Assembly: GCF_025143985.1 (NCBI RefSeq)
Contig: NZ_CP083564.1
Location: forward strand, 310,001-374,000
Direction of reading: 5' to 3'
Length of the DNA: 64,000 nucleotides
Source: Sulfitobacter sp. W027
GTDB taxonomy: Bacteria > Pseudomonadota > Alphaproteobacteria > Rhodobacterales > Rhodobacteraceae
Position 1 is the stretch's first letter. Each line of letters begins with the position of its first letter. The notes under the pieces were generated by a model. That model made no database searches, was not told the origin of the DNA, and worked only from the letters and a program-made list of their open reading frames with translations. A program made the translations under genes and the position numbers. This document shows positions 46,181-51,276 of the stretch, in pieces.

Positions 46181-46310
46181 GCGCTTTTTGCCGAGCGCTA
46201 TCCCCTCTCAGGTTGATCCTTGTCTTTTCCGACAGAATAAGTCACCTATTGCCCGAAGGCCCGGCGCGCTCTGCGTCGGGACCATGGTGATTTTCAAGGA
46301 AGGACATTCG

Positions 46311-47573
46311 ATGCGCCTCAAAGCGACCACGGCCATTGCGCTGATCACATGCGCCGCCGCTCCGGCATTTGCACAAGACAAGGCCGAGGTGCTTGGCACC
46401 TATGCCAACATCGCGCAGGCGGGCTACGAAGACAGCCTGGCTACTGCGCAGACGCTGCAAGCCGCCGTCGAGACGCTGATCGCCACACCCTCGGCCGAAG
46501 CGCTTCAGGCTGCGAAAACCGCATGGCTGGCCGCTCGCGTGCCCTACCAGCAGACCGAGGTGTTCCGCTTTGGCAATGCAATCGTCGATGATTGGGAAGG
46601 CAAGGTAAACGCATGGCCGCTGGACGAAGGTCTGATCGACTATGTCGACGCCTCCTATGGCGGTGAGACGGATGAGAACCAGCTCGCGGTGCTGAATGTC
46701 ATTGCCAACCCAACCTTCACGCTCGGCGGGGAAGAGGTGGACGCCACCGAGATCACGCCCGAACTGCTCGAAGGGCAGTTGCATGAGGCGGGAGCGGTCG
46801 AGGCCAATGTCGCCACCGGCTACCACGCCATCGAATTCCTGCTCTGGGGCCAAGACCTGAACGGCACCGACCACGGCGCGGGCGACCGTCCTTGGACCGA
46901 CTACGCAGCGGGCGACGACTGCTCCGGCGGCAATTGCGACCGCCGCGGGCAATACCTCAAGGCCGCCACCGATCTTTTGGTCAGCGATCTGGAATGGATG
47001 GCCGGGCAATGGGCCGAAGGCGGTGAGGCGCGCACTGCCGTGCTGGCCGACGAAGACGCCGGGATCGACGCGATCCTGACCGGCATGGGCTCGCTTTCCT
47101 ACGGCGAACAGGCCGGGGAGCGGATGAAGCTGGGCGTCATGCTGAACGACCCCGAGGAAGAGCATGATTGCTTTTCCGACAATACCCACAACAGCCACTA
47201 CTACGACGGTCTGGGCGTGCGGAACGTCTATCTGGGCGAATATCTGCGCGTTGATGGGCGTGTGGTCTCGGGCGCGTCGCTGTCCGATCTGGTGGCCAGT
47301 GCCGATGCCGGTGTCGACGAAGACCTGCGCGCCAAGCTGAACGCCTCCATGATGGAGCTAGGCCAGATCAAGACCGCCGCCGAAGCGGGGTTCAGCTATG
47401 ACATGATGCTTGAGCGCGGCAATGCCGAAGGCGAAGCGCTGATCATGGGCGCGGTCGATGCGCTGGTAAACCAGACCCGCGCGATCGAGCGCGCCGTGAC
47501 CGTTCTGGGCGGTGACCAGATCGCCTTCGAAGGGTCCGACAGCCTCGACGCGCCGGACGCGGTTTTCCAATAA
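46311..47573 (+). CDS. Imelysin-family periplasmic protein (first)
   Basis: A 420-residue exported protein of the imelysin/ICMP (insulin-cleaving metalloproteinase-like) family, known for iron-regulated expression. A Sec signal (TTAIALITCAAAPAFAQ) is followed by two four-helix-bundle halves. The signature GYHAIEFLLWGQDLNGTD contains GxHxxE (H172, E175), the proposed metal-binding motif. A cysteine pair is in DDCSGGNCDRRGQ, and HDCFSDNTHNSHYYDGLG is the other conserved family block. GGAAGG precedes ATG 46311. It heads a four-gene operon with a di-haem protein, a second imelysin and a DUF1513 protein. A role in periplasmic iron capture or transfer is inferred from context. Confidence 0.92.
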   Translation: MRLKATTAIALITCAAAPAFAQDKAEVLGTYANIAQAGYEDSLATAQTLQAAVETLIATPSAEALQAAKTAWLAARVPYQQTEVFRFGNAIVDDWEGKVNAWPLDEGLIDYVDASYGGETDENQLAVLNVIANPTFTLGGEEVDATEITPELLEGQLHEAGAVEANVATGYHAIEFLLWGQDLNGTDHGAGDRPWTDYAAGDDCSGGNCDRRGQYLKAATDLLVSDLEWMAGQWAEGGEARTAVLADEDAGIDAILTGMGSLSYGEQAGERMKLGVMLNDPEEEHDCFSDNTHNSHYYDGLGVRNVYLGEYLRVDGRVVSGASLSDLVASADAGVDEDLRAKLNASMMELGQIKTAAEAGFSYDMMLERGNAEGEALIMGAVDALVNQTRAIERAVTVLGGDQIAFEGSDSLDAPDAVFQ

Positions 47574-47672
47574 ATCCACCTGCCCCCCGCGCCGCATTTG
47601 GGGCCGAGGGGATACGGAACGACGGGCGCGCCGGATGCCGTGCCCGTCGCTCCAAGATCCAAGGCTGCCGCC

Positions 47673-49214
47673 ATGCGTTACTTAATCCAACTCTTTTTGG
47701 CCACCGCTGCCACGACTGTCTTCGCCGCTCCGTCGGACCTTGATGCGCCGCATCTGAATGTGATCCCCCGCACCGCCGAAGAGGCCGCCCGGATTGCCAA
47801 AGTGACGGCCCCCGCGACCGAATTCGACAAACCTGAACCCTTCGAGACGAACCCCGCAGGCGCTGCTACGGTCAGCCCGCGCGGCAATGCCGATGCGTTT
47901 TCGCTGCCTTCAGCCAACATCCCCTTTGAGCGGGAGTTGGACTTCAAGGTGGGCAACGGGCTGTTCAAAAAGCTCTGGGTGTCGTCGCCGTCCTCCACCC
48001 TTGCCTCTGACGGCTTGGGCCCGCTTTTCAACGCGCGCTCTTGTCAGCGCTGCCACCTGAAAGACGGGCGTGGCCATCCCCCCGAAGGGCCGGAGGATGA
48101 CGCGGTGTCGATGTTCCTACGCATCTCTGTCCCCATGCCGCCGGAAGAGGCGATGAGCGAGATCGAGGCGTTTCTGTTGTCGGTGGGCGATAGCACCCCA
48201 CGCACGCGGCCCGATCCGGTCTATGGCGGCCAATTGCAGGATTTCGGCGTGGCGGGGCATCCGGCGGAATATCGGCTGGATGTGCGCTATGAAGAGGTGG
48301 AAGTCAGCCTGTCGGAGGGTGAAACCGCTAGCCTGCGCCGCCCAACCTACCGCGCCGAAGACCTCGGCTATGGCCCCTTGGCCGAGGGCGCGATGCTCAG
48401 CCCGCGTGTGGCGTCGCCGATGATCGGCTTGGGCCTACTTGAGGCGATCCCAGCGGCAGACATATTGGCCCTCGCAGACCCCGAAGACGCTGATGGAGAC
48501 GGTATCTCGGGCCGCGTGCAAATCGTCTGGTCCTTTGAACACGCGCGCCCGATGTTGGGTCGTTTCGGTTGGAAAGCTGGCGCGCCGACGATCCGCGAGC
48601 AATCCGCTAGCGCCTTTGCGGGGGACATTGGCGTTTCATCCCCCATCTTCGACGCAGCTTGGGGCGATTGCACAACCGAACAGACCGCTTGCCGCGAGGC
48701 CCCGCATGGGGACGGTGACGCGCGCGGGACAGAGATTGACGCCGAGGGGCTGGATCTGGTGACCTTCTACAGCCGCAACCTTGCCGTGCCCGCCCGCCGC
48801 GATGTCGGCGCGCCCGAGGTGCTGCGCGGCAAGGCGGTGTTCCATGAGGTTGGCTGCACCTCCTGTCACCAGCCGAAATTCGTGACCGAACGGTTGGAGG
48901 ACCAGCCCGAGCAAAGTTTCCAGCTGATCTGGCCGATGACCGATCTTTTGCTCCATGACATGGGCGAAGGGCTGGCCGACAACCGTCCCGAGGGCCGCGC
49001 GAATGGGCGCGAATGGCGCACCGCGCCGCTCTGGGGCATCGGCTTGACCGAGCAGGTCAACGGCCATACCCAATTCCTGCACGACGGACGCGCGCGGTCG
49101 CTGCTCGAAGCGGTGCTCTGGCACGGCGGCGAAGCCCAGCCCGCCCGCGATGCCGTGGTCGACATGCCCAAAGCCGACCGTGACGCCCTGATCCGCTATC
49201 TGGAGAGCCTTTGA
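47673..49214 (+). CDS. Di-haem cytochrome c-type oxidoreductase, DUF1111 family
   Basis: A 513-residue exported c-type cytochrome with a signal peptide (MRYLIQLFLATAATTVFAA). Two haem motifs are visible: SCQRCH (C124/C127/H128) and GCTSCH (C395/C398/H399), giving two covalently bound haems as in DUF1111 thiol-oxidoreductase/peroxidase-like proteins. The DADGDGISGR stretch looks like a calcium-binding loop. It sits between the two imelysin genes and ends overlapping the second (TGATG). In the operon it may change the iron redox state (ferric/ferrous) for handling by the imelysins; this is inference. Confidence 0.92.
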   Translation: MRYLIQLFLATAATTVFAAPSDLDAPHLNVIPRTAEEAARIAKVTAPATEFDKPEPFETNPAGAATVSPRGNADAFSLPSANIPFERELDFKVGNGLFKKLWVSSPSSTLASDGLGPLFNARSCQRCHLKDGRGHPPEGPEDDAVSMFLRISVPMPPEEAMSEIEAFLLSVGDSTPRTRPDPVYGGQLQDFGVAGHPAEYRLDVRYEEVEVSLSEGETASLRRPTYRAEDLGYGPLAEGAMLSPRVASPMIGLGLLEAIPAADILALADPEDADGDGISGRVQIVWSFEHARPMLGRFGWKAGAPTIREQSASAFAGDIGVSSPIFDAAWGDCTTEQTACREAPHGDGDARGTEIDAEGLDLVTFYSRNLAVPARRDVGAPEVLRGKAVFHEVGCTSCHQPKFVTERLEDQPEQSFQLIWPMTDLLLHDMGEGLADNRPEGRANGREWRTAPLWGIGLTEQVNGHTQFLHDGRARSLLEAVLWHGGEAQPARDAVVDMPKADRDALIRYLESL

Positions 49215-50200
49215 TGCGCAGCTTACTGACCGCCACTTTCCTTCTGACCGCCGCCCCCGCCCTCGCCGGGGTAAACGACGTGATCCAAGATCACGCACTC
49301 CCGGGCACCGCGCGTTTCGCCTCTGCCACTGCGGCGCTCGACGCTGCAGCGCAGGCCGATTGCACCGACACGGCCTTGCGCCCGGCCTATCAAGAGGCTT
49401 TCGACGCATGGATGGGCATCGCACATCTGACCCTTGGACCGTTGGAGGAAGACGGGCGCGGGCTGGCCATCGCCTTTTGGCCTGACACGCGCGGCATGGT
49501 GGGGCGCAGCGTGGCGCGACTGGTGACCGAGGAAGACCCGATTGCGACAAGCGGGAAGTACGCCGAGGTCTCCATCGCCGCGCGCGGGCTCTTTGCGCTG
49601 GAACGGCTGCTTTATGACGAAGACTTCGCAGGCTACGGGGCCGATAGCTATAGCTGCGCATTGGCCCAAGCGATGGCGGCCGATCTGGCCGGGCTGGGGC
49701 GCGAGGTCGACACCGCATGGCGTGAGGATTTCGCCACGACGCTCAGCAGCGCCGGGGCGGCGGGGAACAGCCGTTTCCTCAGCCCGCGCGAGGCGTCACA
49801 GGCGCTTTACACCGCCCTCGCAACCGGGTTGGAGTTCATCGCCGACCAGCGTTTGGACCGTCCGATGGGCAGCTTTGACGCCCCCAAACCGCAGGTGGCC
49901 GAGGCGCGCCGCTCGGGCCGCAGCCTGCGCAACGTGGTGCTGTCGCTTGAAGCATTGCAGGAATTTGCGCGCGCCCTGTCGGACCAGCCCACGCCTGAAA
50001 CCGATGCCGCCTTTAACCGCGCGCTCACCGCCGCCCGCGCCTTGGAAGACCCGGTTCTAGCCGGAGTGGCCGACCCGATAAGCCGTATCCGGGTCGAGGC
50101 TCTGCAAAATGACGTGCTTGCCATTGCCGAGGCCGTGAGCGCTGAGATCGCCCCGGCGCTTGGCGTCACGGTCGGATTCAACTCGGCGGATGGCGATTGA
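49214..50200 (+). CDS. Imelysin-family periplasmic protein (second, shorter)
   Basis: A 328-residue exported imelysin-family protein, shorter and diverged from the one at 46311. The signal peptide is LLTATFLLTAAPALA. In place of the full GxHxxE motif it has RGLFALERLLYDEDF, so the metal site may be altered. It shows the same helical repeat structure with a late VLSLEALQEFARAL segment. The ATG shares a base with the stop of the di-haem gene, and its own stop overlaps the next start, so translation of the operon is tightly coupled. Confidence 0.87.
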   Translation: MRSLLTATFLLTAAPALAGVNDVIQDHALPGTARFASATAALDAAAQADCTDTALRPAYQEAFDAWMGIAHLTLGPLEEDGRGLAIAFWPDTRGMVGRSVARLVTEEDPIATSGKYAEVSIAARGLFALERLLYDEDFAGYGADSYSCALAQAMAADLAGLGREVDTAWREDFATTLSSAGAAGNSRFLSPREASQALYTALATGLEFIADQRLDRPMGSFDAPKPQVAEARRSGRSLRNVVLSLEALQEFARALSDQPTPETDAAFNRALTAARALEDPVLAGVADPISRIRVEALQNDVLAIAEAVSAEIAPALGVTVGFNSADGD

Positions 50201-51276
50201 TGCCCTCGCGCCGCCATTTCCTCGCCGGTTTGGCCGCTGCCACTGGCCTGCCGCGTATGGGCTGGGCCGCCGCTGGTAGCCCTGCCTACCTTGCCGCCGC
50301 GCGCGAACCTTCCGGGGCCTATGCGCTTTTCGGATTGGACTGGACCGGCCATGACATCTTTCGCATTCCGCTGCCCGACCGGGGCCATGCCGCCGCCGCC
50401 CATCCCACCGCGCCCGAAGCGGTCGCCTTTGCCCGCCGACCGGGGCGTTTCGCGCTGGTGATTGACTGTGTGCAGGGCCGTGTGTCCCATCGGCTCGACG
50501 CGCCGGAGGGGCGACATTTCTACGGACATGGGGCGTATCTTAAGGGCGGGGCCATCCTCGTCACCAGCGAAAATGACATCGACACGGGCGAAGGGCGCAT
50601 CGGACTGTGGTCCCGCGCAGAGGGCTATGCCCGGATCGGAGAGATCGCCTCAGGCGGGATCGGCCCGCATGAAATCCGCCGCTGGGCCGAGGATGTGCTG
50701 GTGGTGGCGAATGGCGGCATCCACACCCATCCCGACAGCGGGCGGGAAAAGCTGAACATCGACGATATGCGGCCTAACCTGTCCTATGTCACCCTCTCGG
50801 GCGAGATGCTGGAGCAGGTCGAACTGCCCGATGACCTGCACCTCAATTCGATCCGCCATCTGGCGCTGGCCCCTGACGGGCAGGTGGCTTTTGCCATGCA
50901 ATGGCAGGGGGAGCCGGGCGATGGCGTGCCGTTATTGGGGCTGCACCGGCGCGGGCAGTCAGCGATCCTAGCGGAGGCCGATCTGGCCGAGCAAATCGCC
51001 ATGGAAGGCTACGCAGGCAGCGTGGCATTTTCCGCAGATGGCGGGTCGGTCGGCATCACGTCACCGCGCGGCGGGCGGCTGCATCTGTTTGACAATGAAG
51101 GTGGTTTCCTCGCCAGCCACCGCCGCGCCGATGTCTGCGGGCTGGCGCCGGGCCGGGGCGGGTTCGTCGCAACGGATGGGCTGGGCGGTATTCTGTCGCT
51201 GCAAGAGGCCGCGCTGTCACGGCTCACTACCGCCGCGCGGGCGTGGGACAATCATCTGGTTGCCATCGACGCATAG
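50200..51276 (+). CDS. DUF1513 protein, Tat-exported, beta-propeller-like
   Basis: A 358-residue protein with a twin-arginine signal (SRRHFLAGLAAATGLPRMGWA) and the DUF1513 domain. Repeated blades such as GIGPHEIRRW, NLSYVTLSGEMLEQVELP and HLALAPDGQVAFAMQWQG suggest a seven-bladed propeller similar to WD40/NHL folds. Its role is unknown, but it always seems to accompany imelysin and DUF1111 genes in such clusters as far as I recall. Tat export suggests folding, perhaps with a cofactor, before export. It is the last gene of the operon. Confidence 0.88.
   Translation: MPSRRHFLAGLAAATGLPRMGWAAAGSPAYLAAAREPSGAYALFGLDWTGHDIFRIPLPDRGHAAAAHPTAPEAVAFARRPGRFALVIDCVQGRVSHRLDAPEGRHFYGHGAYLKGGAILVTSENDIDTGEGRIGLWSRAEGYARIGEIASGGIGPHEIRRWAEDVLVVANGGIHTHPDSGREKLNIDDMRPNLSYVTLSGEMLEQVELPDDLHLNSIRHLALAPDGQVAFAMQWQGEPGDGVPLLGLHRRGQSAILAEADLAEQIAMEGYAGSVAFSADGGSVGITSPRGGRLHLFDNEGGFLASHRRADVCGLAPGRGGFVATDGLGGILSLQEAALSRLTTAARAWDNHLVAIDA

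Follow-up and report, generated by a model that had tools for sequence, protein, structure and literature searches.

What do four exported proteins, encoded in a row with no transporter among them, do in the periplasm of Sulfitobacter sp. W027? The question is raised by positions 46311-51276 (+ strand) of a 64,000-nucleotide stretch of contig NZ_CP083564.1, called here, at its full length, the window. An original prediction, made from the sequence, had proposed that this module is a periplasmic system in which iron or haem binding is coupled to redox change. The open reading frames (ORFs) and a Pfam scan gave four genes in the order imelysin-1, DHOR (a DUF1111 protein), imelysin-2 and DUF1513. 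The arrangement is not new: accounts of it date from 2011 and 2015, and the locus adds a further example. Widely spread bacteria have been known to carry the operon for more than 10 years, and no established mechanism was found in the literature. The main value added here is a set of five histidines in DUF1513, which are predicted from a structure model to form a metal site.

The locus and its published relatives

The gene calls agreed with the original prediction in coordinates, in gene number and in the TGATG overlaps (49212-49216 and 50198-50202) that join DHOR, imelysin-2 and DUF1513. Imelysin-1 (46311-47573; PF09375, E = 7e-92), of the IrpA/ICMP family, is separated by a 99-nucleotide spacer (47574-47672) from DHOR (47673-49214; PF06537, E = 1e-95), which its Pfam match and two CxxCH motifs identify as the expected di-haem c-type cytochrome. 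Imelysin-2 (49214-50200; PF09375, E = 4e-43) is IPPA/PA4372-like, and the last gene (50200-51276; PF07433, E = 2e-111) encodes DUF1513; all four, like every feature located below, lie on the + strand. Export of the four proteins, with DUF1513 using twin-arginine translocation (Tat), was borne out by reading of the sequences: the first three carry Sec-type signal peptides without a lipobox cysteine, and DUF1513 carries a Tat-type signal. The operon holds only the four named genes and, as had been said, no transporter; its flanks, read by eye from the ORFs without a domain scan, are housekeeping-like (rsmD-like upstream, methionine aminopeptidase-like downstream). The two imelysins are the sole M75 proteins of the genome.

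Two features of an IrpA/ICMP operon were found at the locus: a GxHxxE imelysin adjoins a DUF1111 di-haem protein, and the other imelysin, with GxxxxE, belongs to the IPPA/PA4372 family. The published relatives are cited here from excerpts of their sources. In Pseudomonas aeruginosa, PA4370-4373 form a Fur-regulated operon with two imelysins, the second of GxxxxE type, and one DUF1111 protein; Vibrio cholerae VC1264/VC1266 are described in the same paper (Xu et al. 2011, PMC3143127). The P. aeruginosa operon matches that of the window in its ICMP-type imelysin, DUF1111 protein, GxxxxE imelysin and fourth gene, and in the iron regulation that is probable for the window; PA4373 is provisionally paired with DUF1513 as the fourth gene. 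It differs in that its ICMP is an outer-membrane lipoprotein, whereas imelysin-1 has a Sec signal without a lipobox, and in its regulator, Fur as against a probable IscR/RirA-type protein in the window. For V. cholerae, VC1264-1267 show positive changes in a table of a regulator study, where they are listed next to iron-uptake genes; the passage does not give the condition.

In Rhodobacter sphaeroides, RSP_1548 (irpA), bfd, bfr, RSP_1544 and RSP_1543 are raised in an iscR mutant, and RSP_1545, a thiol oxidoreductase bearing two haem c sites, changes by 0.59 log2, just under the authors' cut-off; the set is probably cotranscribed with hemP, an Iron-Rhodo-box lies before hemP and another inside the operon, and iron starvation induces most genes with such a box (PMC4618611). 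This hemP-irpA-bfd-bfr-RSP_1545-1544-1543 operon resembles the module in having IrpA, a two-haem-c thiol oxidoreductase and then two further genes, and, as far as the candidate box and probable regulator of the window go, in its Iron-Rhodo-box and repression by IscR. Gene order suggests that RSP_1544, called a signal-peptide protein, and RSP_1543 correspond to imelysin-2 and DUF1513. The R. sphaeroides operon includes hemP, bfd and bfr, whereas that of the window has neither bfd nor bfr. The iron regulation expected of the module thus agrees with what the excerpts report for its relatives, through IscR in R. sphaeroides and Fur in P. aeruginosa.

A candidate operator lies 64 bp before imelysin-1: the 19-bp imperfect palindrome TCCGACAGAATAAGTCACC (46228-46246), which is Iron-Rhodo-box-like, that is, of the IscR/RirA type. 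Motif discovery by expectation-maximization over 47 Rhodobacteraceae upstream regions returned the palindrome TCcGACnAAAtnAGTCAG. When near-duplicates were removed (leaving 39 regions) and real and shuffled sets were given 80 seeds each, the motif reached a log-likelihood of 164.2; the 19 dinucleotide shuffles gave 44.7-55.7. A position weight matrix from 35 regions, trained without the window and loci L003-L005, reads nCtGActAAaTTagTCaGn and placed 46228-46246 6th among the 63,982 positions of the window. Strict patterns for ICE, the Fur consensus and two further variants matched 0 of 57 upstream regions each; the pattern TGA-N9-TCA occurred in 12 of the 57. On the basis of length, palindromy and operon, the box is equated with the Iron-Rhodo-box, and the regulator of the module here is probably of IscR/RirA type.

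EfeUOB/EfeM also pairs an M75 imelysin with a periplasmic haem redox protein; membership of that system was rejected on the lack of FTR1 in the genome and on the wrong type of peroxidase. EfeU is an FTR1-type permease, whereas FTR1 (PF03239) gave no match in the window genome. It was present in 4 of 15 module genomes compared with 14 of 99 others (one below cut-off), and in all four it lay on a contig other than that of the module. EfeB is DyP-type (PMC3577903, excerpt), whereas DHOR (PF06537, two CxxCH) is modelled with a fold of di-haem cytochrome c peroxidase (CCP) and MauG, so the label 'EfeB homolog' given to DUF1111 in 2011 fails by fold. The cupredoxin domain of the Efe proteins likewise has no counterpart in the Pfam scan of the module.

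Distribution of the four genes

Chance as the cause of the four-gene grouping is excluded by a survey of 67 DUF1513 loci. All four genes were present in the fetched DNA of 56; of these, 54 keep the window order with every gene on the same strand, and L055 and L063 are rearranged. That the genes co-occur in other genomes, a point on which the original prediction had staked its reading, was also evident from whole genomes. Among 114 alphaproteobacterial genomes, DUF1513 was found in 15, M75 in 21 and DHOR in 30; every one of the 15 had at least two M75 matches and DHOR. Five of the six M75 genomes without DUF1513 carried one full-length imelysin no more than 2 kb from DHOR (one of the five, G107, also having a short weak M75 match), and the sixth had no DHOR.

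A wider table covered 299 genomes of the phylum. Its counts drop DHOR matches weaker than about 1e-39, imelysin matches weaker than about 4e-62 and the second-copy imelysins of G164 and G168, and a strong imelysin is defined by match strength alone, irrespective of the GxHxxE motif. Strong DUF1513 was present in 70 genomes (76 minus six with weak matches only, E above 1e-6). All 70 had DHOR, within 8 kb in 69, and a strong imelysin match, within 8 kb in 62; at least two imelysin matches were found in each. DHOR was likewise present in all 78 strong-imelysin genomes, within 8 kb in 72 of them and in all eight of those without DUF1513, and strong DHOR occurred in nine of the remaining 221, those without a strong imelysin match. 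The imelysin lay elsewhere in the genome, with DHOR beside DUF1513, in G269, G298, G299, G332, G356 and G389; in G371, DHOR lay beside the imelysin and not beside DUF1513. Because DHOR is found in every strong-imelysin genome and every DUF1513 genome, it is the hub of the module, to which DUF1513 with imelysin-2 is an add-on.

Of the 58 loci that carry both imelysin-1 and DHOR, 28 have iron-storage type genes in the gap separating the two: bfd with bfr in 23, bfd alone in one, and a reverse-strand Dps-like gene in four. The bfd-bfr loci are L005, L009-L015, L017, L019, L022, L029-L031, L034, L038, L040, L041, L045, L048-L050 and L052; the opposite-strand Dps-like ferritin gene is found in L016, L033, L035 and L046. 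The two nearest Sulfitobacter relatives, L010 and L050, carry bfd-bfr in this gap and the window does not. When the window spacer was checked for the scar of a lost bfd-bfr pair, it resembled just the last bases before DHOR in those two loci, and ferritin searches of the window genome gave only a weak, stop-interrupted match on contig C2.

Candidate metal and haem sites

DUF1513 is the clearest new metal-site candidate of the module; it and the role of DHOR as hub had both been missed by the original prediction. The DUF1513 structure model (predicted local distance difference test score, pLDDT, 94) is a seven-bladed beta-propeller. Five blades in succession each carry one histidine on the inner strand: H63 (50386-50388), H110 (50527-50529), H157 (50668-50670), H220 (50857-50859) and H352 (51253-51255), the last on the closing strand of the propeller. 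In an alignment of 96 proteins, which leaves out the partial gene of L069, H63 is conserved in 95 (with one gap) and the other four in all 96; E124 and S274 are conserved along with them, and the twin arginine R4/R5 is kept in 91-92. All five histidines are also retained in 120 of 120 proteins of a distant DUF1513 clade, despite changed neighbouring residues. The names in that clade (P0241-P0360; also L066-L068) include Myxococcota and Thiolapillus, and a Tat-like twin arginine is present in just 10 of the 120.

On the model, the five inner-strand histidines are predicted to form a metal site. It is a tentative and, in our judgement, rather unlikely extension that DUF1513 represents an undescribed class of propeller metalloproteins in which they hold a catalytic metal. 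No mention of the five-histidine site was found in the literature, in searches none of which was aimed at exactly that claim, and DUF1513 was not named in the literature on the module among the matches listed; as far as the literature found shows, the site is new. The DUF1513 profile found no full-length relative among PDB sequences, and its propeller matches are fold-level and unspecific. Two structural likenesses were set aside. Nitrous oxide reductase has a seven-histidine CuZ site on a seven-bladed propeller together with a CuA cupredoxin domain, whereas the invariant inner-strand histidines of DUF1513 number only five and the protein has no other Pfam domain. In hydrazine synthase (5c2v), the gamma subunit shares the DHOR fold; the match of DUF1513 to the propeller of the beta subunit is common to many WD40 proteins, which score alike, and was dropped as evidence for function. 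The beta subunit is moreover described as having no known active site, whereas DUF1513 has its five histidines, and the alpha subunit with the active-site haem has no counterpart in the window operon, the part of the genome searched for it.

DHOR carries its haem c motifs at CQRCH (C124-H128; 48042-48056) and CTSCH (C395-H399; 48855-48869), with cysteines and histidines invariant in 39 aligned sequences. Its model (pLDDT 88.1) has the fold of the superfamily of CCP, MauG and the hydrazine synthase gamma subunit. Fold and haem motifs together are those of a bacterial di-haem CCP, and the Pfam label of PF06537 is putative peroxidase. Like MauG/MbnH and the di-haem CCPs, DHOR has this fold and two CxxCH motifs; it is longer than either. 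H484 (49122-49124), also invariant in the 39 sequences, takes the position of the methionine of CCPs at a gap-free offset of +12 after HDG/HSG, an equivalence that was read manually against CCP sequences (HMMER placed gaps there). It is predicted to be the sixth ligand to the second haem, for which bis-histidine ligation is possible. Searched against PDB sequences, the DHOR profile found no full-length relative, its only significant match being the CxxCH segment of a small cytochrome.

In imelysin-1, the GxHxxE motif (G170-Y-H-A-I-E175; 46818-46835) keeps its G, H and E in each of 28 aligned sequences, in all of which an invariant W179 follows, and the protein aligns with P. aeruginosa ICMP (PDB 7xrx) at E = 5.6e-126. 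Imelysin-2, whose match to PDB 3pf0 has E = 1.8e-13, carries instead GxxxxE (G125-LFAL-E130; 49586-49603). Its third motif position is F in 11, P in 8, Y in 5, G in 4 and A in 1 of 29 aligned proteins and never histidine; the glutamate is retained in 27 of the 29. Both motifs are as first described from the sequence, and the inequality of the two imelysins (GxHxxE versus GxxxxE) stands; the original prediction went too far in dividing them into a binding and a scaffold protein, and it had missed the accounts of the operon from 2011 and 2015. Imelysin-2 ends in Asp-Gly-Asp-COOH (50189-50197), and F[NS]xxDGD is the exact C-terminal end of 88 of 91 imelysin-2 ORFs. The three exceptions are ORF pieces in L008 and L060, where the module genes are split over several ORFs, and one of the three ends GFNALDVD. 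In the alignment, 3pf0 ends like imelysin-2 of the window. This near-invariance suggests that the C-terminal carboxylate is a docking or chelation element. With the possible bis-histidine haem of DHOR and the five-histidine site, it offers specific residues and metals to probe.

Proposed mechanism and its rivals

From the gene order, families, co-occurrence, fold models and conserved sites observed above we infer a mechanism, and we hold the chances evenly balanced that the locus is a Sulfitobacter-type copy of a conserved iron-starvation imelysin operon (IrpA/ICMP type) that works in this way. Under iron shortage, an IscR/RirA-type repressor would leave the upstream box and the four periplasmic proteins would be made. 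Imelysin-1 would capture iron at its GxHxxE interface site; DHOR, as the redox hub, would oxidize or reduce that iron by exchanging electrons with periplasmic carriers or peroxide. Imelysin-2 and DUF1513 would form a second, metal-binding and perhaps catalytic half, in which DUF1513 would be a metalloprotein with its metal held by the five inner-strand histidines and the acidic tail of imelysin-2 would serve as partner of DUF1513 or as delivery arm. The iron would then be handed to the host's own inner-membrane importer, none being fixed to the module. The known operon and its iron control, the upstream box, the co-occurrence, the ferritin genes in the gap, the five-histidine site, the fold of DHOR and the metal preference of the EfeM imelysin domain, for Cu, Fe and Zn (PMC9174327, excerpt), all favour this iron-starvation reading. 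If the predicted sites are borne out, DUF1513 would gain its first function, and the contribution of the second half of the module would be shown.

Several observations weigh against it. The coupling of iron or haem binding to redox change, as originally proposed, holds up in that an exported, iron-regulated module contains a redox protein, but not in haem binding by imelysins: in the excerpt of Xu et al. (PMC3143127), thermofluor assays of two solved imelysins showed binding of neither Zn nor Fe(III) nor haem. The box in the window is a weak copy with three mismatches to the consensus, and the palindrome occurs at 30 sites genome-wide compared with 61 for a backward control; not being enriched, it cannot serve to delimit a regulon. 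The module is accessory: all three families are missing from G187, the only other genome sampled from the genus, and of 23 genomes sampled from the family, 10 lack DUF1513, one of these 10 (G292) having imelysins and DHOR. Nor is the set always complete. No imelysin-1 was found in the fetched DNA of 4 of the 67 loci (L028, L043, L044 and L053), which have DHOR, imelysin-2 and DUF1513, and the Tropicimonas loci L048 and L049 comprise imelysin-1, bfd, bfr, DHOR and DUF1513 with no imelysin-2. DUF1513 of L066-L068 lies on short contigs without other module genes, so the protein may serve some purpose other than iron uptake. Within the propeller, the offsets of the five histidines from the strand starts given by DSSP differ among blades. 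A fixed transporter or TonB receptor, the association of which with the module had also been put forward for checking, was not found; every neighbour cluster was confined to four or fewer of 20 module loci from 19 families, a weak negative, as the longest-ORF rule of the test loses genes in GC-rich DNA, module genes included.

Other readings give DHOR or the metal a different part. DHOR could be a maturase like MauG or MbnH, oxidizing a tryptophan or tyrosine of a partner (W179 of imelysin-1, for example, or a residue of DUF1513) to build a metal site. We consider this improbable: its fold matches the hydrazine synthase gamma subunit (score 15.9) and CCPs (up to 15.5) somewhat better than MauG/MbnH, W179 adjoins GxHxxE in sequence only, and the predicted ligand of the second haem is His484, not tyrosine. 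The corresponding ligand in MauG is a tyrosine. There is a similarly small chance that the module handles copper or another metal and is linked to iron only indirectly, acting as a ferroxidase-like or oxidase system that depends on copper and is induced at low iron. The ferritin-type genes in the gap of 28 of 58 loci and the iron-type regulators point instead to iron, and the propeller matches are too unspecific to speak for copper.

That DHOR is a periplasmic peroxidase, the module guarding an iron-starved or iron-shifted cell against peroxide, would suit its Pfam name and di-haem CCP fold, and the DUF1111 protein of Dinoroseobacter shibae is peroxide-induced in a RirA-dependent manner (PMC8007024, excerpt). 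The same induction is common to iron-metabolism proteins and can reflect derepression of the iron regulon; by the offset reading, the CCP methionine is replaced by the invariant His484; and two imelysins and DUF1513 are left unexplained. We regard this reading as decidedly improbable. It is very unlikely indeed that the imelysins are metallopeptidases, as the M75 family name, the ICMP label and the original ICMP report cited by Xu et al. would have it. In the excerpt of that paper (PMC3143127), the motif geometry is described as unlike that of HxxE peptidases and the activity as a possible contamination, and the metallopeptidase reading was set aside on these published structural arguments.

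The remaining observations concern the surroundings of the module and its variants. The neighbour test yielded 11 non-module clusters in at least two loci; the five that were scanned comprised an EAL/GGDEF protein, an ATP-binding cassette transporter, a FadL-type porin and two that matched no Pfam family. In four of the 67 loci DUF1513 stands alone, on short or cut contigs, and L020 (Sedimentimonas) has imelysin-2, DUF1513 and a C-terminal piece of DHOR, with no imelysin-1 in the fetched DNA. The five histidines of DUF1513 are kept in L048 and L049, where imelysin-2 is missing. Tandem DHOR genes lie between imelysin-1 and imelysin-2 in L137 and L146. Two DHORs beside a single imelysin (G285:C1:901938-903434 and G376:C28:339081-340577; E = 9e-274 and 9e-271) are far closer to the Pfam model and probably belong to another subfamily. 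The closest named relatives of the locus are from Sulfitobacter, DUF1513 being 90% identical in S. dubius and 91% in a Sulfitobacter metagenome-assembled genome.

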